DNA of 28,251 bases, taken from positions 1 through 28,251 of the IMG/VR virus record IMGVR_UViG_3300008963_000023. One strand, given 5' to 3'. The DNA is from a virus. The notes beneath the pieces are model-generated. The model was not told where the DNA came from. It saw only the letters and a list, made by a program, of their open reading frames with translations, and did no database searches. Positions 14,309 through 26,450 of this stretch are shown here, one piece after another (within the stretch, counting starts at the first letter, position 1; the number at the start of each line of letters is the position of its first letter). Position numbers and translations under genes: made by a program.

Positions 14309-14570
14309 TTGTATCGTCTTTTTCTATCGTATAGTTTTTAAATGCGTTTAAATACTTAACACTTTTAATAATATTATAAAAATAGTCATTAACAAAAAGT
14401 ATAAACTCACGAATAGTTTGGTTTCTTTGAATATGTTTTGATACCATCTTATTAACAAGATTGTCTTTATAGTCATATCCAATATTTAGTCTACTGTCTT
14501 TACGGTGTTTTGCAACATCGTAAATCTTTTTGCGTTTATATACTAATAAGTCCTTAAATGGTACTATCAT
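14298..14570 (-). CDS. Small basic protein between the gp6-like and gp7-like wedge genes (90 aa)
   Basis: I do not recognise this protein. It is basic and aromatic (KRKKIYDVAKHRKDSR near residue 12; FVNDYFYNIIKSVKYLNAFKNY near residue 58) and predicted mostly helical, with no signal peptide or membrane helix. Its ATG shares a base with the TAA of the gp6-like gene (TAATG), so translation is probably coupled, and its end overlaps the start of the gp7-like gene by 11 bases. The two overlaps make it a genuine gene rather than a chance frame. The position suggests a minor wedge component or a helper for assembling the gp6/gp7 heterotrimer. That role is inferred from location only. Confidence 0.7.
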   Translation of the reverse strand: MIVPFKDLLVYKRKKIYDVAKHRKDSRLNIGYDYKDNLVNKMVSKHIQRNQTIREFILFVNDYFYNIIKSVKYLNAFKNYTIEKDDTNVR

Positions 14571-16396
14571 TACAATGCTCTTCTATTTCCAGCCTGTACT
14601 CTAGTATAAATAGTTCTAGGTACAGGAGCATCATCAAAATTAATACTTAATGCTGCTTCTTCATTTATTTTTACACCATCCGCTATAGTATCGCCATCTC
14701 TATCTAGCCAGTTACCTTTAAAAAGAGCAACCTCCTCTCTATCAAGTATAATATCACCAAAACGATCCAGGCCTCTTATTTTATCTGGAATTGAATCGCC
14801 AGGTTTTATATTAACCCTCTTTGTATTTTCTACTTTTTGGAAAAAAACGTACTTTTGTTTACCGTTACCAATATCTTCAAGGACTACAGGTTCTTGTGGT
14901 TTAACTGTAGTAGTTATACTTTCATAAAAACCTAGTCTTAAAGCATCTTCCTCTTCTTTGCTAATAAATCTAACGTTAACAGAATCTATACCTTCAATCT
15001 CTTCAAGGATATAGACAATATCTGACTTAGGTAGTTTATCTCTTCTAGTAATATTCAATAAATAGTTAGAAATAGCCGAACGTACATCGTTTGCAATTTC
15101 CTGCTTTGTAAAGCCCTCGAAGTATCTAATTGAAACATCAATGCTATATTTTTTGACTTTTGGTTTAACAAATTCAATCTCTGTAGTAACCATGACCTGA
15201 CCTGAATCTTGTAACACCTTATACATAGCATCGTATTCATCTTGCGTAAAGAACATTTCTCTTTCGGGCAGTGAAAAGTAATCTTTATCGGCTTCTACTT
15301 TTCTCTTAAAGTCCGGTATAGCAAATATGTAAATTATATTATCATCGTCTAAGTATTCATCATCGGTTCTATTATAAACATCAATATATGAAAACTGATT
15401 GTATTTAGATAGAAAGTACTCATAGTTATCTGGAGTGGCCAGTACGTATGATTTACTTGCAAGTGGTGTTAAGATCTTTGTAAACTCAGTTGATTCACGT
15501 TCAGCTCCCATTTTAGGCGCTGAAGTTACAGTAACATCAAAAAATTCGTTTAAATCGTGTAACTCACCAAGTGAATCTTCGCCTTCAGTTTCCCATTTTA
15601 CAGTCAGATCTGAACCTTCAGCTAAATTACCTTTAGCACCATCATGTTTAATATACTCAACTTCAATTGTAGCTCCTTCTGCAGGTGGAATACCAAAAGA
15701 ACCATTACCGAAATAAATATCTAAACCTCCGCCAATACCAGTCTTTACCAGACAAGCTTTTTCGTTGGCATTCATATCGTAGAGTGAGACGTGTTTAGTC
15801 CATACTTCACCGTTAACATAAACAGTAACTTTATTATGATCCGTTAAACCACGCGTTGTTATATTGAAAGACTGTAAGTTTTCACCGGTACCTGTTAATG
15901 TTTGCGTTTCATATTCGCCCTGGCAAATTTCAGCTTTAAATATATTTTTATTACTCTTTTCAACTCTAAATCTATCCCTTGATGTTTGTAGCGTATACTT
16001 TAAACCATTTGAGTCAAATTTAAGTATGGCTCTACCATCAAATGTTAGACCAGTACCTGCAATTTTACTAAAGTCAGCGCCCGGCTTCCATCTAAATTGA
16101 ACTTCGCCAAACGCAGCGTAGCCCCTAGTAGGGTCGTGGCCAGTTAGCCTAGACATGCCGTAGATAGATTCAGACTGTTGTGCCGTATAAATATTCTGCT
16201 CTACTAGAGCATCTTCTACATAGAATAAAATAAGCTCACCTATTTCACTCATTACACCTAATAGTTGGGCAAATGGTGATGCTTCCGTAAATAGAGTATT
16301 TGCACGTTTGTAAACGCGAGAAATATAAGTCCTTGCATCCTGTTTAATCTGCTCTCCAGTTACTCTAAGTCTATCTAAAAATTTAAGATTTGCCAT
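14570..16396 (-). CDS. Baseplate wedge protein, gp6 / baseplate J-like (608 aa)
   Basis: This is the main wedge protein that forms the inner ring joining baseplate sectors. Diagnostic features are: a helical N-terminus with ISRVYKRANTLFTEASPFAQ and LILFYVEDALVEQNIYTAQQ (residues 25-73); a beta-rich middle with the family hallmark YFGNGSFGIPPAEGATIEVE (about 228-247), followed by Y and then GAKGN; and the C-terminal J-like domain (about 415-478), which includes SIDVSIRYFEG, EIANDVRSAISNYL, LPKSDIVYILEEIEGIDSVN. The length matches T4 gp6 (660 aa). It lies directly after the gp25-like gene (12-base gap), which is the conserved order in contractile tails. The start is the first ATG, preceded by an A-rich stretch without Shine-Dalgarno. 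The C-terminal 100 residues carry an added charged domain (GLDRFGDIILDRE). Confidence 0.88.
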   Translation of the reverse strand: MANLKFLDRLRVTGEQIKQDARTYISRVYKRANTLFTEASPFAQLLGVMSEIGELILFYVEDALVEQNIYTAQQSESIYGMSRLTGHDPTRGYAAFGEVQFRWKPGADFSKIAGTGLTFDGRAILKFDSNGLKYTLQTSRDRFRVEKSNKNIFKAEICQGEYETQTLTGTGENLQSFNITTRGLTDHNKVTVYVNGEVWTKHVSLYDMNANEKACLVKTGIGGGLDIYFGNGSFGIPPAEGATIEVEYIKHDGAKGNLAEGSDLTVKWETEGEDSLGELHDLNEFFDVTVTSAPKMGAERESTEFTKILTPLASKSYVLATPDNYEYFLSKYNQFSYIDVYNRTDDEYLDDDNIIYIFAIPDFKRKVEADKDYFSLPEREMFFTQDEYDAMYKVLQDSGQVMVTTEIEFVKPKVKKYSIDVSIRYFEGFTKQEIANDVRSAISNYLLNITRRDKLPKSDIVYILEEIEGIDSVNVRFISKEEEDALRLGFYESITTTVKPQEPVVLEDIGNGKQKYVFFQKVENTKRVNIKPGDSIPDKIRGLDRFGDIILDREEVALFKGNWLDRDGDTIADGVKINEEAALSINFDDAPVPRTIYTRVQAGNRRAL

Positions 16397-16408
16397 CTTT
16401 TTTCTTGT

Positions 16409-16765
16409 TTAATTTACATAAATTTGCACTAAATACTTGCTATCAATGGTTATGTCAACGTAGGCAATGTCCCGAACAGTGCCCCTAAAGAAACTAATTT
16501 TAGGGCTAATATTATATTTTTTTGCCAATGGACAGTAAGTATTTATCTGACCTTCTATGGTAGTTTTAATTTGTTGTTCGTTTAGGCCTAAAGAATAAAT
16601 CATATCCTCTAGGTTACAGCCAAATTCTGGGCTACCAAGAACTTCAGATTTATTTGTAAAGAGAGTAGTTTCAATTTGGGTTATAAGTTGTTGTATTTCA
16701 TTCTCTACATGAACCTGATTAGGATCGTAATTAGGGTCACCAACATGTTTAATGTACAATTCCAT
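16409..16765 (-). CDS. Baseplate wedge protein, gp25-like (118 aa)
   Basis: Short protein of the gp25/GPW family, which nucleates sheath assembly on the baseplate inner ring. The family pattern is visible at residues 41-60: EVLGSPEFGCNLEDMIYSL corresponds to the conserved G-E-R-x-x-x-P-(E/D)-F-G-x-x-L. This is followed by a helix (EQQIKTTIEGQI) and a C-terminal strand pair (AYVDITIDSKYLVQIYV). The Arg that usually follows the Glu in family members appears here as Val42. An N-terminal helix (VENEIQQLITQIETTLFT) precedes the core. Length fits the family (about 110-150 aa). It sits immediately upstream of the gp6-like gene, the classical neighbour, which makes the call secure. The start ATG lies 17 bases after the preceding stop; the leader contains AAAAGAGA but no true Shine-Dalgarno. 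Confidence 0.85.
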   Translation of the reverse strand: MELYIKHVGDPNYDPNQVHVENEIQQLITQIETTLFTNKSEVLGSPEFGCNLEDMIYSLGLNEQQIKTTIEGQINTYCPLAKKYNISPKISFFRGTVRDIAYVDITIDSKYLVQIYVN

Positions 16766-16782
16766 ATTTATATGTATCTCTT

Positions 16783-17625
16783 TTAACTGTGGAACATAAA
16801 ATCTACGCCTTCATCGCCTTTAATTTCTTCTTCAATGGCATTAAGCTCTCCATCTCCCATTGATTTAATTGCATCATAGTCAAATTCAACATTACCGGGT
16901 AGGGCAAATTTAAAAATACCTAGTTTAGCACCAAGAGACTGTTTAACTTTAGCACTAATATATCTAAAGAAAATTTCATCATCATAAAGTGCACAGTCTG
17001 GTATAGTTTCGTAAACCTCTAATATTACATCACCCTTTGGTGTATCGCCCATGAACTTTAAATCACCAGTTAGCCTAGAATAGTCAAATGAGAGTGGATT
17101 CTCTAAAATTTGCCTCGACATATCTGCTAATGATGCATTAAGTACATAGTATTGTAACTCTTCGGCGGACTCTGCTGGACCTGCGCCGTCATACATTCTT
17201 CTAAATAACATCTTTTCAATTGCAAAATCAGCACCCGACTGAAACCTTAAATCTAGGCCACCGCCCATGTTGTTCCAACCACTAGAAAGATCATAAACAC
17301 CGTAAACCGAGTAGACTCTACCCGAACCGTCTTCCCCAGCATTAGGCATTGTCAAAGTTCTATGGCTCTTAAAATATTCAGTCTTAAAAACTTCCTTTGG
17401 GACATGGTAATAATTCTCGCGTAAAGAATCTTCGTATTTCTTATAGAACCATTTTTTAGCCCTATTGATAATATTAATAATTTCTTTTTTAGGCAAATTA
17501 ACAGGCACCATACATGCACCTGTTATTTCATTGCCAATTTCATCTAGGAATTCATTTAGGCAGTTTTCATCAAAGCTTCTTGGGCTTGTTAAATCATTTT
17601 CACTACCGCTTCTAATTTTACTCAT
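16783..17625 (-). CDS. Structural protein, possibly neck/connector (280 aa)
   Basis: I cannot assign this with certainty. The N-terminal part has a helix typical of virion connector proteins (LPKKEIINIINRAKKWFYKK, residues 45-64). The C-terminal part has a helix-turn-helix stretch at about 200-270 (VILEVYETIPD, FFRYISAKVKQSLGAKLGIF, then LPGNVEFDYDAIKSMGDGEL) that resembles the connector or neck proteins of large myoviruses. In the middle is a Gly-rich loop (SSGWNNMGGGLDLRFQSGAD, 114-133). There are no membrane segments. It starts three bases after the amidoligase stop and is followed by the gp25-like gene, so it shares a transcript with both. Alternatives are a baseplate wedge accessory or a substrate of the neighbouring amidoligase. 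The reading frame is clearly real; the function is a low-confidence guess. Confidence 0.7.
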   Translation of the reverse strand: MSKIRSGSENDLTSPRSFDENCLNEFLDEIGNEITGACMVPVNLPKKEIINIINRAKKWFYKKYEDSLRENYYHVPKEVFKTEYFKSHRTLTMPNAGEDGSGRVYSVYGVYDLSSGWNNMGGGLDLRFQSGADFAIEKMLFRRMYDGAGPAESAEELQYYVLNASLADMSRQILENPLSFDYSRLTGDLKFMGDTPKGDVILEVYETIPDCALYDDEIFFRYISAKVKQSLGAKLGIFKFALPGNVEFDYDAIKSMGDGELNAIEEEIKGDEGVDFMFHS

Positions 17626-17628
17626 TTT

Positions 17629-18939
17629 TTATGAATTTATTTTTTTACTTACTACTATTTCAGTATCATCAAATCTAGCATAAGGGCCTATATTACCCTC
17701 TCTAAATATGCCACCTTTCATTTTGCCTTTAAAAATACTATCAGTACCAAATATATAACTATTGATAACTTCACAGCTACCATGCACAAAGCTTGATTTT
17801 ATTTTAGATTCTCTAGTTTTAGTTGCTTGATAAAAGTTAGAAAATTCAATATTAGAGTTTTCAATATTACAGTTATAAAAATCACATTTATTAAAATTAC
17901 CTCTAAGTTCAGAAGTTATAAACTCAAAGCCTTCTGCTAAGAAACAGACTGGCATCTTTCCATCTTTAACTTGAATGGAGCTAAAGTCAGAGTCATAGTT
18001 AATTATACCCTCCACTAACCCACCGTCAGTAATTAGTTTCATTACACTGTTCTTAATTTTATCCCAATATACTTTAATAATTCGATCGCTTTCTTGTAAA
18101 TCAACCATTAAATTAATTTTAGGCCAGTATTCATTTAATTTTTTATGGTCTTTTAGGGCTTCTATTACATGTAAATTTTTATTTAAAATATGCTTAAGCT
18201 CAATCTTGTCCTCGGCAGTAAACTCCGGTTGAATACATGCCTTAAAGAGTTGTAGAATAAATCTTTGAGCAAGATATAGTATATCATCTAATCTATCCTC
18301 ATAATCTTTACCGCCAATATACCTAAACTCTAAGTAATTATTATTTTTCTTTAAAAAGTTAACTCCATAATACTTTGTATCTGGAAATGTAAAATTTGTA
18401 TGAGTAATATACTCAGGTTTAAAATAAAAAGACTCATGCTTTGGCAATACATATTTGATTGATTTGGCATAAACTGAATTCTCTCTTTCTGGAAAGAATT
18501 TATAAACCTGTTTTTCGTTAAAAATCAAGATGAACTTAAGCGTGTTCATTCTTGATACCATACCAGGATCCTCTAGCTTATTTTTGTCAAATGAAATGTT
18601 TAAATGAATTGAAGTTCTATCGGTTGTATAGCCGTTTTCTTTAATCCAGTTCAATACTTTTATTATTAAAATTCTGGCATTACGGTAATGTAATGGTCCA
18701 GTTACAAGCTCTATCAAGCCCGAGCCACCTGACATATCAGGCTCCATCTTAAAATGTTTATCTGTTGGTTGAAATTCAGAGTGTGCTTTATCCTCTAAAT
18801 TAATAGGTAAACCTAGAAGATCCTCAATTTCTCTATGAGTTTCTTCTAGGCTTTTATTTGAATAGAACTCAAACTCAACTCCAATTAACGAAGAATTAAG
18901 TATTGATTCTTTTGTAGAATTTCTATTTATTTTATCCAT
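17629..18939 (-). CDS. Amidoligase (GS-like COOH-NH2 ligase) with C-terminal pentapeptide repeats (436 aa)
   Basis: Residues about 17-210 match the amidoligase_2 family, ATP-dependent enzymes with a glutamine-synthetase-like fold that join a carboxylate to an amine. Recognisable motifs in the right order are IGVEFEF (19-25), MEPDMS (65-70, the 'D-x-S' strand), GLIELVTGPL (74-83), TSIHLNIS (109-116, the family's H-x-(H/N) strand) and NYLEFRYIGG (201-210, the closing E-F-R). The usual acidic and basic active-site candidates (E22, E24, E77, H112, E204, R206) are present, so the enzyme looks intact. Residues about 346-395 form pentapeptide-type repeats (NFNKC DFYNC NIENS NIEFS), giving a predicted right-handed beta-helix. 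The substrate is unknown; a virion protein or host envelope peptide is possible. It is flanked by the S1-like gene and a neck-like gene, inside a baseplate cluster. A putative promoter octamer lies 20 bases before the ATG. Confidence 0.72.
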   Translation of the reverse strand: MDKINRNSTKESILNSSLIGVEFEFYSNKSLEETHREIEDLLGLPINLEDKAHSEFQPTDKHFKMEPDMSGGSGLIELVTGPLHYRNARILIIKVLNWIKENGYTTDRTSIHLNISFDKNKLEDPGMVSRMNTLKFILIFNEKQVYKFFPERENSVYAKSIKYVLPKHESFYFKPEYITHTNFTFPDTKYYGVNFLKKNNNYLEFRYIGGKDYEDRLDDILYLAQRFILQLFKACIQPEFTAEDKIELKHILNKNLHVIEALKDHKKLNEYWPKINLMVDLQESDRIIKVYWDKIKNSVMKLITDGGLVEGIINYDSDFSSIQVKDGKMPVCFLAEGFEFITSELRGNFNKCDFYNCNIENSNIEFSNFYQATKTRESKIKSSFVHGSCEVINSYIFGTDSIFKGKMKGGIFREGNIGPYARFDDTEIVVSKKINS

Positions 18940-18983: not shown

Positions 18984-20267
18984 CTATGGTAGTTTAAGGT
19001 ATACCCGTTGGCTTTCTTCTTCTATCCTAATGATTTTTACAGTAATATTATCACCGGTATTAAAAGCTTTTATAATATCCTCGCCAATTTCACTAACATG
19101 TAATAATCCGACAACACCATCTTCAATTTTAATAAAAAGACCATAATCCTTTTTAGACTTTACTTCGGCATTAACTATAGATGGTATTTTATAACGTGAT
19201 TTAATATCATACCATGGGTCGATTTCACTTTTAGACTTCTGTGTTAGCGTAATCTTTTTATGGGAAATTATCTCTTTAACCTTGAACGTAATTTCACTTC
19301 CTGGTTTAATTTTATTATTTACAAAGAGTTTATATGTCTCTTCATTTATATCGTTTTTATGAATCATGCCTGTTAAACAACCGTAAAACTCAACAAAAAT
19401 ACCGTATTTAGCAGTTCCAGTTACGTTTCCAGTGATTTCATCATCCATGTTATCTTTGATCTTATCAATCTCATTAGGAATTAATGCTTGTAGATATTTT
19501 CTATGTGAAACTACAATAGTACCACGTTCCATTGAAAAAGAGACTGGAACCACATATAATTCTTTACCAACTATTGATTCAAAGTTTACTAACTTATTAA
19601 TACCTGCAAGAGATCCTGGCATAAAGCACTCAATACCATGTATATTAACGATATAGCCACCATTTTCAATCATATGGCTAACTTTACCAACCCATGCAGT
19701 ATCACCAGATTCAACGCCTGCGCGCAGGTCCATAAATATTTTTTGTTTAATACCACCCGAAATACTACCAGAAACGTAAGAGTTATCGGTATTTGTGATT
19801 AATACAGCAACCTCTTCACCGACTTCGATATCGCGGTATTCGTTGGGTTCTTTATTAGACTGAACATAGACAAGCTCGCGATAGCCGATGTCGATTGAAA
19901 TAGTTTCTGGTGTTGTAGCATAAACAATACCATCATATATTTGGCCAACGTCAATTTTAGTCTTAATTTTTTGATCAATCTCAAACTCATTTAGAATACC
20001 ATAAAAGCTTTGAGCATATGACTCTTTAGAATAGACTCTTTCGCCGGCTTTAGTCTTAATGTGTGGGTTAATTTTACGGGCACTAGAAATACATGTTGCT
20101 TCATAAGCATCCCACATAAAGTTACCATCATCATCTAGATATTCTTTATCCGGGCTTTCTAGCAAATAGTTTTTACTATTTCTTTTTGTCTCACTGTTTG
20201 GCTTTTTTTCTAATGATTTTTTATCGGTTGCCAGTCCGATTTTTTTACGCTTGTTTCTGTCTTTCAT
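18984..20267 (-). CDS. S1-domain RNA-binding protein, ribosomal protein S1-like (427 aa)
   Basis: Four S1-type OB folds can be read: about 106-170 (IYDGIVYATTPETISIDIGY), 189-258 (AWVGKVSHMIENGGYIVNI ... VVSHRKYL), 277-344 (GNVTGTAKYGIFVEFYGCLT ... GMIHKND ... ITLTQKS) and 362-427 (KKDYGLFIKIEDGVVGLLHV ... VKIIRIE). Domains 3 and 4 carry the classic G-(I/L)-F-(V/I) and G-(M/L)-(I/L)-H motifs and are best conserved; domain 1 is degenerate. The first 30 residues are highly basic (KDRNKRKKIG), and residues 31-105 are an unassigned region. Bacterial bS1 (about 560 aa, six domains) recruits and unfolds mRNA on the 30S subunit, and a truncated relative could redirect host ribosomes to phage late mRNA. 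Alternatives are a regulator or RNA-protecting protein. The stop is TAG. It has its own putative promoter and sits between baseplate genes. Confidence 0.85.
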   Translation of the reverse strand: MKDRNKRKKIGLATDKKSLEKKPNSETKRNSKNYLLESPDKEYLDDDGNFMWDAYEATCISSARKINPHIKTKAGERVYSKESYAQSFYGILNEFEIDQKIKTKIDVGQIYDGIVYATTPETISIDIGYRELVYVQSNKEPNEYRDIEVGEEVAVLITNTDNSYVSGSISGGIKQKIFMDLRAGVESGDTAWVGKVSHMIENGGYIVNIHGIECFMPGSLAGINKLVNFESIVGKELYVVPVSFSMERGTIVVSHRKYLQALIPNEIDKIKDNMDDEITGNVTGTAKYGIFVEFYGCLTGMIHKNDINEETYKLFVNNKIKPGSEITFKVKEIISHKKITLTQKSKSEIDPWYDIKSRYKIPSIVNAEVKSKKDYGLFIKIEDGVVGLLHVSEIGEDIIKAFNTGDNITVKIIRIEEESQRVYLKLP

Positions 20268-20314: not shown

Positions 20315-22045
20315 TTAAAAAACCAGGGGCACAAAACCCGGCATGGGTACTGGTCCAGTTGGCGTGGGTATACCTCCAAGGTAAATAAGCTTAAATTCTA
20401 AAAGGTGTAGTGCATATGTTGTTGCAAGTGCAGATGCAACTGCTAGTGCAGGAGGCTGTGTTGCTGGTAGTTGGCTAAAAGTTTTGCCCATGTTTAAAGC
20501 CCTTCTTAAATTGTTAGCCAATCTTTGAGTACTACCATAATAAACAGGTATGTAGATACCACCAAGCGGTGCCGAAATAAGAGCTGGTAATGCCGAAGGT
20601 GTTGGTTTAAAGGGCTGTACAATAGTGCTAACCCAATAACTAATTGTTGCTTCTGCAAGTAGAATCCATGGGTCTTTGCCATCTTCATAACAACTATAAT
20701 CAAAAGGTACTTCTGGTTGTACATCTTTAGCTTCACATTCAGCAGCTATCCTCTCTTCTCTAAGTCCTTGCCACTTTGAAAATTCAAAAAGAGTGCCACC
20801 ATTTAATGGTTTAATGGCACTAAAATCCTGGATACCATTTAAATCTGGTGTAAATATCCAATGGCCTTTATACTCTTGATCAACGTATGTTTGCTCTACA
20901 TATGCTGGTGGCTTCTGCCATTTGCTTAAAACGCGTGTAGTACCATCTGCTAAAGTTTCTTTAAATTGATTTGGCAGGTAAGCTCTTACATCAGGTCGCC
21001 ATGAAAAAAAAGCAATAACCATATCGGTTAATATTTCAGGTCTTTTACTATCATCTTCTCTATTATAAGAAACTTGAATACGTTTTGTACTTAAAGTCTT
21101 TTCTGGTCGGTCTGTACCAAAGGGCCATGGCCTTTGAATTGGATTAATAGCATTGCGCTTTATTGCTTGTTCTATATTATCATTTGAGTTAGTTGATGAT
21201 GAATTAACTGGATGTGCACTGTCAATTACAGTCTTAACTTTTTTTGAAACATTATCAACCATCTTTCGCCAGTCATAGCCAGCGTTCTCAATATCATTTT
21301 TAACAAGCTGATGTACATTTATGTAAGGTGATATAAAGCCATCTCCTAGATCAACTGTACTTAAATTAAAATTTTGGTATTCTGATTTACCTAGAGCTGA
21401 AACCCATTCATAGAAGCTCCAACGTTCATTTGGATCTTCTATCTTCTCAAATTGTTGTAGGAGCCTGTTCACAAACATATCTTCAACTTGAGCTTGTGTG
21501 TCGTTAGGCTCAATACAGTGAAACTCGAAGTAGCTAAATGAGTATAAATTATCACACTCCTCTTCTATAAACTGACAGAACTTTTTCTCGCGCTGAGCTG
21601 CAAGTTCTTCTTCGGTCGGCGGCTCTGGTATATCCTCGCATAGATCAGCATAAGCATCTAATGACTCTTTACCTTTTTCAATAACATTACCGTCCATGTC
21701 TTTCTGATCTGTTAAAAAAGGTTCACCATTTCTAAAGATCTGCTCAAAGATTTCACCGTATGCCTTAATGAAGATTTGTGCAGCTGGTGATTTTTGATGT
21801 GTTGCACCAAATGGTGTCTGTGCTGATGCAATTGCGTCTATATAGAATTCAGCCAAGGCTTCACCAAAACTTCTACGACCACTTGGCGTTACAAGTGGTG
21901 CATAGTCTTTAGCATTGAAGTTTGGATTGTTATCCGTAGCCAACCTATTGTCTTGGTCTAAAACACCAGGTCCACCGGCATTTGCATCGCCGTTTGCAAT
22001 GTAATTACTAACATCTGCTATGAATTTAGGCCATAACGCCGGCAT
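20315..22045 (-). CDS. Baseplate/tail-tip structural protein with hydrophobic C-terminus (576 aa)
   Basis: I do not recognise a named family. The N-terminal domain (MPALWPKFIADVSNYI; then EALAEFYIDAIASAQTPFGA at about 62-81) is helical and soluble. The middle is mixed, with six Cys in the whole protein (about 136, 157, 164, 177, 437, 452). The last 120 residues are strikingly apolar: ILLAEATISYWVSTIVQPF (461-479), PSALPALISAPLGGIYIPVY (483-502) and PPALAVASALATTYALHLL (531-549), ending in a Pro/Gly-rich tail (PTPTGPVPMPGFVPLVF). The gene overlaps the spike gene by one base of its stop (TAATG), so it is translationally coupled to the spike. The only SD-like element in the window (AAAGG) is found here. 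A role at the spike/tail tip with possible membrane contact is inferred; a baseplate hub accessory is the alternative. Confidence 0.7.
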   Translation of the reverse strand: MPALWPKFIADVSNYIANGDANAGGPGVLDQDNRLATDNNPNFNAKDYAPLVTPSGRRSFGEALAEFYIDAIASAQTPFGATHQKSPAAQIFIKAYGEIFEQIFRNGEPFLTDQKDMDGNVIEKGKESLDAYADLCEDIPEPPTEEELAAQREKKFCQFIEEECDNLYSFSYFEFHCIEPNDTQAQVEDMFVNRLLQQFEKIEDPNERWSFYEWVSALGKSEYQNFNLSTVDLGDGFISPYINVHQLVKNDIENAGYDWRKMVDNVSKKVKTVIDSAHPVNSSSTNSNDNIEQAIKRNAINPIQRPWPFGTDRPEKTLSTKRIQVSYNREDDSKRPEILTDMVIAFFSWRPDVRAYLPNQFKETLADGTTRVLSKWQKPPAYVEQTYVDQEYKGHWIFTPDLNGIQDFSAIKPLNGGTLFEFSKWQGLREERIAAECEAKDVQPEVPFDYSCYEDGKDPWILLAEATISYWVSTIVQPFKPTPSALPALISAPLGGIYIPVYYGSTQRLANNLRRALNMGKTFSQLPATQPPALAVASALATTYALHLLEFKLIYLGGIPTPTGPVPMPGFVPLVF

Positions 22046-22773
22046 TATTTACCTTTTTGTTGATAGTTAATATGAGTAGCTGAAAGTTCTCCAATGGTAA
22101 CTGGTGTGGGTGGCATTGGTGGGCCACTGGGACCAACTCCAGTTGGATGAATATGTGTATTATAGTCGTCTAATAGTTTTTGTAGCCAGTCTTGTAGGGA
22201 TTGGCCACGGACTGCCGGCTCAGTCTCGTCTGCGCCACCTTCACCAGTGTTTGAGACGAATATATCACCTGAGTCTAAGAACATTTTAGCGTCAGTAGAG
22301 ATCTTAATAAAGCCTTCTTCGTCAATTTGTAACATTGGCCTCTCTTTGGCTCCAGCGCCGCGCGTAATCACAAGGCCATCTTCTGGTGAGTGATATATCC
22401 TTAAATTTCTTTCAGCGTCATAGACTAGGCTTATGACATCATGTGGCGCGTCTGAGGCCTCGAGAATATCTGCTTTAAGGTCATCGTTTTGATTTACTTG
22501 AAACCAGTATTCTGGGTGATAGATATTACCATTGTCAAAACGAACTGCGACAATATCACCAACTCTAGGTACGTGATGTGAACCTACGGCGTCTCTGTTC
22601 ATTGGAGTTGCCCATGGAATAACTTCATCTGTCAATAGATCAAACTTACCGAATACTCTAATACGACATCTACCTTTTAGAAGTGGGTCTTCATTGTCTA
22701 TAACTTCACCAAGCCAATGCGTATCTCTAAGATTATCCTCGTATAGCTCACTATTATTCATATACATTTTCAT
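22045..22773 (-). CDS. Central spike protein, gp5/gpV-like OB-fold, without lysozyme (242 aa)
   Basis: The membrane-piercing spike at the tip of the tail tube. Residues about 17-95 are the gp5/VgrG-type OB fold: HWLGEVIDNEDPLLKGRCRI, followed by RVFG, then IPWATPMNRDAVGSHHVPRV, followed by GDIVAVRFDNGN and YHPEYW. Residues about 110-180 are short beta strands consistent with a small spike prism (LQIDEEGFIKIST). The C-terminus has an apex-like NTHIHPTGVGPSGPPMPP with an H-x-H pair at 207/209, like the iron-binding tips of P2 gpV-type spikes. Unlike T4 gp5 (575 aa) there is no lysozyme domain. The start could be ATG at 22773, 22767 or 22761; all overlap the preceding gene (stop at 22754), so the exact choice is open. 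It follows the hub and a tube-like gene, as expected. Confidence 0.85.
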   Translation of the reverse strand: MKMYMNNSELYEDNLRDTHWLGEVIDNEDPLLKGRCRIRVFGKFDLLTDEVIPWATPMNRDAVGSHHVPRVGDIVAVRFDNGNIYHPEYWFQVNQNDDLKADILEASDAPHDVISLVYDAERNLRIYHSPEDGLVITRGAGAKERPMLQIDEEGFIKISTDAKMFLDSGDIFVSNTGEGGADETEPAVRGQSLQDWLQKLLDDYNTHIHPTGVGPSGPPMPPTPVTIGELSATHINYQQKGK

Positions 22774-25511: not shown

Positions 25512-26450
25512 TTAATCGCAAGGTGAAGAGCCCGAAGCATTATCATCCTGGCTAGTGTTATTGGTATTACCACCGGACGGTGTTGGATTACCACCATCGG
25601 TTTGATTATCTCCAACGTTATCCGCGGTACTAACAGCATCAGAGGCTGAAGTTTCTGATTCATCTTCGTTACCCGGACTTGGAAGCTGATCAAAGTAGAG
25701 TTGGCCTTCAAAAGAACCTTCTATTTTACCATTAGGGTCGCCATGTTCACCTGAAAGAGAGCCTGCAACCTGCTGCGCAACTTTAGGGTTGACGGGTAAC
25801 CAGCTACTGCCTAACCATGACCAAACTCCGCCAGGTATCTTTTTAAATTCATTACCTAAGTTTTCACCGCCTATTTTTAAAGTATTGTCTACATCTTCAT
25901 TCGTTACTTCAGTGCCACTATCGTTTAAACTGTTATTAATACTTTCTACTACAGCATCATTTTGCGCCTGTGCACCCATGACAATATTATCACCGTCGAA
26001 CTTGTAATTCTTTTTACCTACAGGGATTACATTAGGCGGCAGTAAATCATCTTTGCCATACCTTTTCTTTAAGGCATCTAGCCTGCGCTGATCCTTTTTA
26101 CTTAAACGTTTACCATCAACAAATTGTTGTTTAACAGGGTCATCATCAAAATTATTAGGTCTTTCTAATTTATAAAAAGGTAGAGTTGCCACGGGTATTT
26201 CTAGCTCATCGCCATCATTTATTGAAAAAGGATCGCTAATACCGTTCCACTTTAAGATAATATCAGTCTTACTCTGGTTACCATAATATTGAAGTGCTAT
26301 TAGATCTGGTCTAGCAACCTCATCTTCTTTGACGTAGTATTCTTTTTCAACTAACTCAACTTGCTCTCTATTTCTAAAAAGCATGGTTGGCTGTGTCATG
26401 ATTAGCTTAACTGCGCCTCCTGTTTTATGTAAAATTGTCTTTAAATTCAT
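25512..26450 (-). CDS. LysM/gp53-like baseplate protein with acidic disordered tail (312 aa)
   Basis: Residues about 36-87 fit a LysM-like fold of the gp53/gpX type used in contractile baseplates: KEYYVKEDEVARPDLIALQY, then YGNQSKTDIILKWNGISDPF and INDGDELEIPVA. The order (Y-x-V, helix, L-x-x-x-N-x-I, then a loop and L-x-I-P) is characteristic. In T4, gp53 clamps the wedge. A basic helix follows (LSKKDQRRLDALKKRYGKDD, 116-135). The last 55 residues (258-312) are almost purely Ser, Asn, Gly, Asp, Thr and Pro (GDNQTDGGNPTPSGGNTN), so they are predicted disordered and acidic. It lies 5 bases after the tube-like gene and 9 before the hub gene. The alternative is a peptidoglycan-binding LysM; the baseplate context favours gp53-like. 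The tail is much longer than in typical relatives. Confidence 0.62.
   Translation of the reverse strand: MNLKTILHKTGGAVKLIMTQPTMLFRNREQVELVEKEYYVKEDEVARPDLIALQYYGNQSKTDIILKWNGISDPFSINDGDELEIPVATLPFYKLERPNNFDDDPVKQQFVDGKRLSKKDQRRLDALKKRYGKDDLLPPNVIPVGKKNYKFDGDNIVMGAQAQNDAVVESINNSLNDSGTEVTNEDVDNTLKIGGENLGNEFKKIPGGVWSWLGSSWLPVNPKVAQQVAGSLSGEHGDPNGKIEGSFEGQLYFDQLPSPGNEDESETSASDAVSTADNVGDNQTDGGNPTPSGGNTNNTSQDDNASGSSPCD

Follow-up and report, generated by a model that had tools for sequence, protein, structure and literature searches.

An amidoligase fused to a pentapeptide-like β-helix in a phage morphogenesis operon

What would an enzyme that forms amide bonds be doing among the structural genes of a phage? 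The window, meaning the whole stretch of viral DNA analysed here, is 28,251 nucleotides long, and the first-pass annotation described within it an amidoligase fused to pentapeptide repeats in a cluster of virion genes. This description was confirmed, with the correction that the gene is on the minus strand (Table 1). In the literature found, the amidoligases of other phages are described as putative members of early cassettes for metabolism or the cell surface. Here the amidoligase is fused to a β-helix and kept in the morphogenesis operon of phages that are related to some of the largest on record. The catalytic-domain family is already known, and UniProt names the relative in Agrobacterium phage Atu_ph07 an amidoligase. 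Neither the fusion nor its constant position in a huge-phage morphogenesis operon appears to be described in the literature searched, where the one paper found to mention both pentapeptide repeats and amidoligases concerns another superfamily.

Table 1. Features of the window discussed in the text, with the evidence for each.
Feature	Position	Strand	Evidence
Amidoligase (glutamine-synthetase-like) with C-terminal β-helix, 436 aa	17629..18939	-	ORF, Pfam PF12224, AlphaFold, Foldseek
Glutamine-synthetase-fold catalytic domain, residues ~17-236	18232..18891	-	model, Foldseek, invariant residues
ExE motif (E22, E24), predicted metal ligands, in first barrel strand (17-27 in model)	18868..18876	-	invariant in 29 homologues
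Motif D68-x-S70	18730..18738	-	invariant in 29 homologues
Motif E77-L-V-T80-G81	18697..18711	-	E77, T80, G81 invariant in 29 homologues
Motif H112-L-N114	18598..18606	-	H112, N114 invariant in 29 homologues
Motif E204-F-R206 (LEFRYIGG)	18322..18330	-	invariant in 29 homologues
Pentapeptide-like β-helix and conserved cap, residues ~321-430	17650..17979	-	model, periodicity test, A0A6J5PQ40 match
gp53/LysM-like baseplate wedge protein	25512..26450	-	phrog_1269 E 4e-7
gp5/gpV-like baseplate OB-domain protein, no lysozyme domain match	22045..22773	-	PF04717 E 4e-7
Ribosomal-protein-S1-like protein, several S1/OB domains, directly upstream of amidoligase	18984..20267	-	Pfam S1 E 3e-24
T4 gp13-like neck protein, begins 3 nt past amidoligase stop	16783..17625	-	phrog_211, Foldseek, 75/75 adjacency
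Acidic C-terminal tail of gp13-like protein, last 15 residues (EEIKGDEGVDFMFHS), candidate substrate	16786..16830	-	near-invariant in 22 homologues
gp25-like baseplate wedge protein	16409..16765	-	GPW_gp25 E 0.003, phrog_43 E 0.009; weak by sequence, position supports
gp6-like (Baseplate_J) baseplate wedge protein	14570..16396	-	PF04865 E 3e-5, phrog_219 E 5e-30

The catalytic domain

The protein matches Amidoligase_2 (PF12224) over residues 19-168 (E 5.7e-5), with a score of 23.5 bits that is only marginally above the Pfam cut-off of 22, and its huge-phage orthologues fall under the cut-off. This match is thin on its own, and a family of homologues was therefore assembled. The amidoligase motifs follow one another in the order GVEFEF (E22, E24), EPDxSGG (D68), ELVTG (E77), IHLN (H112) and LEFRYIGG (E204, R206), and are intact, as had been claimed. 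In an alignment of 29 diverse homologues, E22, E24, D68, S70, E77, T80, G81, H112, N114, E204 and R206 are invariant; the catalytic residues are also invariant in an alignment of 16 homologues, and are kept down to about 31-40% identity. Residues 17-236 contain 45 invariant positions, compared to two or three in each other part of the protein. These include the positions expected in ligases of the glutamine synthetase (GS) fold, namely ExE, D, E, H and ExR, whose metal- and ATP-binding roles are assigned by analogy with such ligases.

The structure predicted by AlphaFold using the family alignment (pLDDT 91.5, pTM 0.84) is a GS fold followed by a β-helix, which supports the amidoligase assignment of the first-pass annotation. 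Foldseek searches of the PDB gave glutamine synthetases as the best matches (E 1.3e-4, probability 1.0), although with TM scores of just 0.26-0.30. In a viral library an uncultured-phage protein, A0A6J5PQ40, matched across the full 436 columns with a TM score of 0.82, and was followed by named phage amidoligases, including that of Atu_ph07; E values for phage amidoligases went down to 4e-12. When experimentally determined relatives with a GS fold were sought by sequence, the PDB gave only pentapeptide and other β-helix proteins, and no sequence similarity to E. coli GshA was detectable. The predicted catalytic class, an ATP-dependent carboxylate-amine ligase, is well supported.

In its fold, motif order and catalytic residues the protein is like the Amidoligase_2 GS-like ligases, but it is a divergent member, just over the Pfam cut-off, with a C-terminal β-helix and a position in a structural operon. 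Homologous catalytic domains are found in the Atu_ph07 amidoligase (AUZ94978.1 / A0A2L0UZM1) and in gp124 and gp125 of Salicola phage SCTP-2 (phrog_33777). These proteins are longer, with extra sequence ahead of the matched part, and unlike the window protein with its pentapeptide-like helix, the Atu_ph07 amidoligase and SCTP-2 gp125 have no pentapeptide Pfam match. In SCTP-2 the amidoligase genes form a tandem pair, gp125 (L007:13924-15744) overlapping gp124 (15741-17684), and both products are annotated as hypothetical. In Atu_ph07 the gene is two positions away from that for the portal, and is gp196 by the annotated gene order (portal gp198 = AUZ94980.1). It falls inside the CDS 170-215 block, which is reported to be rich in virion proteins (PMC6102473); the main text of that paper does not mention gp196.

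The C-terminal β-helix

Pentapeptide-type repeats had been claimed for residues 346-395. The repeats are there, but over a wider span: the AlphaFold model has successive short strands forming a confidently modelled β-helix at about 321-430, which ends in a conserved GIFREG-like cap seen in the alignment. The periodicity of five residues was significant in a shuffle test (P = 0.002 for the window protein, at most 0.002 for L002-L005 and L008, and <0.03 for all nine sequences tested), and weaker Foldseek matches were to the pentapeptide-repeat proteins 6fls and 2xt2 (E ~0.03). The formal family assignment did not hold, as Pentapeptide (PF00805) scores 13.6 bits on the window protein, below the cut-off of 20.2, and Pentapeptide_4 scores 26.8 bits on its relative L002, where the cut-off is 38. 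From its periodicity and its model, the C-terminal repeat is best described as pentapeptide-like, and not as a formal Pfam member.

A right-handed β-helix with five-residue periodicity is shared with the pentapeptide-repeat proteins (AlbG/McbG-like proteins, QnrB and the C-terminal part of HalA). Compared to these, the helix here is short and degenerate, is fused to an enzyme, has its own conserved C-terminal GIFREG cap, and is under the Pfam cut-off. Residues ~337-388 of the L002 homologue weakly resemble HalA, the effector of the Hailong anti-phage system, scoring 18 bits where the cut-off is 250; this probably reflects just the common pentapeptide-like helix.

Operon, gene order and selection

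The 28 kb contig is filled by 17 consecutive minus-strand genes, with intergenic gaps of -20 to 76 nt. In order of transcription these code for a 568-aa protein, a gp53/LysM-like protein, a 503-aa putative hub, a 407-aa protein, a gp5/gpV-like OB protein, a 576-aa protein, the S1-domain protein, the amidoligase, a gp13-like neck protein, a gp25-like protein, a gp6/Baseplate_J-like protein, and then additional products that presumably belong to the distal tail or fibres. The enzyme had been placed among baseplate genes, and this is correct: the gp53/LysM-, gp5 OB-, gp25- and gp6-like genes and the gp13-like neck gene are all on the same strand. The gp13-like neighbour resembles T4 gp13 by its modelled fold, matching the T4 neck structures 9mkb and 9lu6 in Foldseek (E ~5e-8) from a model with a pLDDT of just 64; against the T4 gp13 sequence profile it reaches only E 0.6. 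The S1-like protein matches NCBIfam rpsA with E ~1e-42, under the equivalog cut-off. Between the gp5-like and S1 genes (window 20315-22045) the content varies: many relatives have other gene pairs or insertions there, some on the opposite strand. The Shine-Dalgarno signal of the 17 genes is not above random (3.06 vs 3.11). In huge phages the presence of S1 correlates with missing Shine-Dalgarno sequences (PMC7162821), and the combination of such genes with an S1-like gene in a structural operon fits this reported correlation.

Full-length homologues were found in about 100 environmental phage contigs, most with 46-75% identity to the window amidoligase: a scan of viral contigs gave 32 loci (51-75% identity), to which a profile and additional scans added about 65. 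A search of bacterial and archaeal genomes gave only two small contigs of metagenome-assembled genomes, which are probably phage. The fusion is also kept at full length in the genomes of huge phages of 462-735 kb (LR756500-LR756504 and LR745206) with 31-40% identity; in tblastn these six records gave 33-40% identity and 93-98% coverage. Most carriers are uncultured phages. The dN/dS ratio of the amidoligase is 0.055, and those of the neighbouring genes are 0.037 (gp13-like), 0.053 (gp6-like), 0.048 (gp5-like) and 0.114 (S1); the purifying selection on the amidoligase matches that on the baseplate genes.

In about 90 contigs the order S1, amidoligase, gp13-like, gp25-like, gp6-like is fixed, except that one has a different frame at the gp25 position. 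The gap between S1 and amidoligase is mostly 48-59 nt, and that between amidoligase and gp13 mostly 1-7 nt. A survey of gene neighbourhoods anchored on gp13 gave the same structural setting: the amidoligase is directly before gp13 in all 75 contigs that have enough upstream sequence, and thus in every testable gp13-bearing contig of the clade. These contigs are close relatives (73-87% in gp13) and many are shared with the previous set, so that the count of 75/75 is a completeness check and not independent sampling.

Further out in the family the local order is lost, yet baseplate or neck genes can be found within a few kilobases of the amidoligase in LR756502, LR745206, LR756504 and L098-L099; in L003, L004, L005, L098 and L099 the order is reshuffled but the amidoligase is near other baseplate or neck genes. 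The exception is LR756501, where no baseplate or neck genes are near the amidoligase within the stretch examined. S1 can be ruled out as a constant neighbour, since it is tens to hundreds of kilobases from the amidoligase in LR756501, LR756502, LR756504 and LR745206. Many small neighbour proteins in L001-L005 and L097-L101 begin with an MK-x-x-x-[FY]-x-x-F-x-NE-like sequence (23 of 275 ORFs, where 4.2 are expected, and 0 of 178 in the window clade), which resembles the T4 capsid-targeting sequence.

Candidate substrates

The interpretation that we favour, tentatively and at somewhat less than an even chance, is that the gene codes for a catalytically active carboxylate-amine ligase of the Amidoligase_2 type, dependent on ATP and metal. 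It would be expressed late, from the tail/neck operon, and would make an amide bond on a protein that is part of the virion or takes part in its assembly, either adding an amino acid or amine or forming a cross-link. There is a precedent in PafA, a GS-fold enzyme with whole proteins as its substrates. The leading candidates for the substrate would be proteins of the neck or baseplate, above all the gp13-like neck protein encoded alongside. The β-helix may serve as a docking or oligomerization module, recruiting the enzyme to the neck or baseplate during assembly, and the enzyme may stay in the virion. The fixed operon position might, however, mirror late expression alone. Modification of a virion protein, if it takes place, would add a new type of enzymatic maturation to phage assembly, and the enzyme might be of use as a new ligase tool.

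The first-pass annotation had also proposed editing of a host envelope peptide. The enzyme would then modify an envelope or peptidoglycan peptide late in infection, for superinfection exclusion or lysis control, as has been proposed for the amidoligase cassettes of phiEco32, LUZ24 and PSA-HP1 (PMC5498523, PMC10580990). The amidoligases of these cassettes are phage-encoded and belong to a common superfamily with the window enzyme, but their partners within the multi-enzyme cassette include a GATase and an ATP-grasp enzyme (PMC3890496, PMC5498523), and are among the early genes where their location is described (PMC3890496). The GATase partner was not found in relatives of the window enzyme: GATase_6 gave no match in any of the seven huge or jumbo genomes with a relative, while 14 of 14 control genomes were positive (the window itself is just a 28 kb fragment). 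COOH-NH2 ligase (PF14395) was found in 0/7 of the relatives' genomes, but in none of the control genomes either. Because the GATase partner is missing in these seven genomes, and late structural genes adjoin the amidoligase in 75/75 contigs, envelope editing is disfavoured, and we regard it as unlikely.

Next among the unlikely readings comes the synthesis of a small molecule, such as a γ-glutamyl compound or a polyamine or folate conjugate, used in or bound by the particle. Amino acids are the substrates of many GS-fold ligases (GshA type), and there are older claims of folate polyglutamates in T4 baseplates, on which a literature search gave nothing relevant. Against this reading, metabolic neighbours are absent, the β-helix fusion points to a protein as target or partner, and the enzyme has no sequence similarity to E. 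coli GshA that could be detected.

A role in translation is doubtful, and comes after small-molecule synthesis in our ranking. RimK adds glutamates to ribosomal protein S6, and by analogy the enzyme might modify the translation apparatus or the adjacent S1-like protein, favouring late phage translation. The S1-like gene is directly adjacent throughout the window clade and near in LR756500, S1 is present in 6/6 huge-phage records with the full-length enzyme, and the window genes without Shine-Dalgarno sequences match the S1 correlation noted above (PMC7162821). However, S1 is far from the enzyme in the four huge-phage genomes named above, it evolves faster than the amidoligase (dN/dS 0.114 vs 0.055), and Lak phages have S1 but gave no amidoligase match. 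The weakest of these alternatives is that the protein has a structural role in the virion or in assembly, and has retained the fold without being catalytic in vivo. This would suit the stable operon position, the fused domains and the large oligomers that GS-fold proteins form, but is very improbable given that the catalytic residues are all invariant over deep divergence while the β-helix and the remaining protein vary.

Returning to the favoured reading of a ligase acting on a virion or assembly protein, gp13 was considered as the partner in particular. In T4, the C-terminal segments of gp13 enter the portal clip, and host Hfq is a transient second gate in the neck (PMC12270204). Together with the acidic gp13 tail, these facts make the adjoining ligase and S1-like protein attractive as a dedicated neck-assembly module, in which, by analogy, the ligase would amidate the gp13 tail and the S1-like protein would act as a gate or chaperone in the manner of Hfq. 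If true, a post-translational amide modification would control head-tail joining in megaphages. An acidic D/E-E-G-x-D tail is present where amidoligase and gp13 adjoin, but in four other huge phages checked, which have the enzyme without the adjacent arrangement, the gp13 tail is unrelated and ends in F-rich and basic residues. This rules out one conserved tail that accompanies the enzyme everywhere, and means that tail and enzyme are confounded with phylogeny. As the tail differs where the arrangement is broken, the neck module is just a lead, and a long shot. The gp13 gene is distant from the amidoligase in LR756501, LR756502 and LR745206, so gp13 is not proven as the partner. In phage Lak-A2, homologues of gp13 and S1 are present but an amidoligase could not be detected, implying that the enzyme is dispensable for some gp13-type necks. 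In moraphages, gp13, gp25 and gp6 are core genes, and a 'glutamine synthetase' is annotated in nine genomes (PMC12619734).
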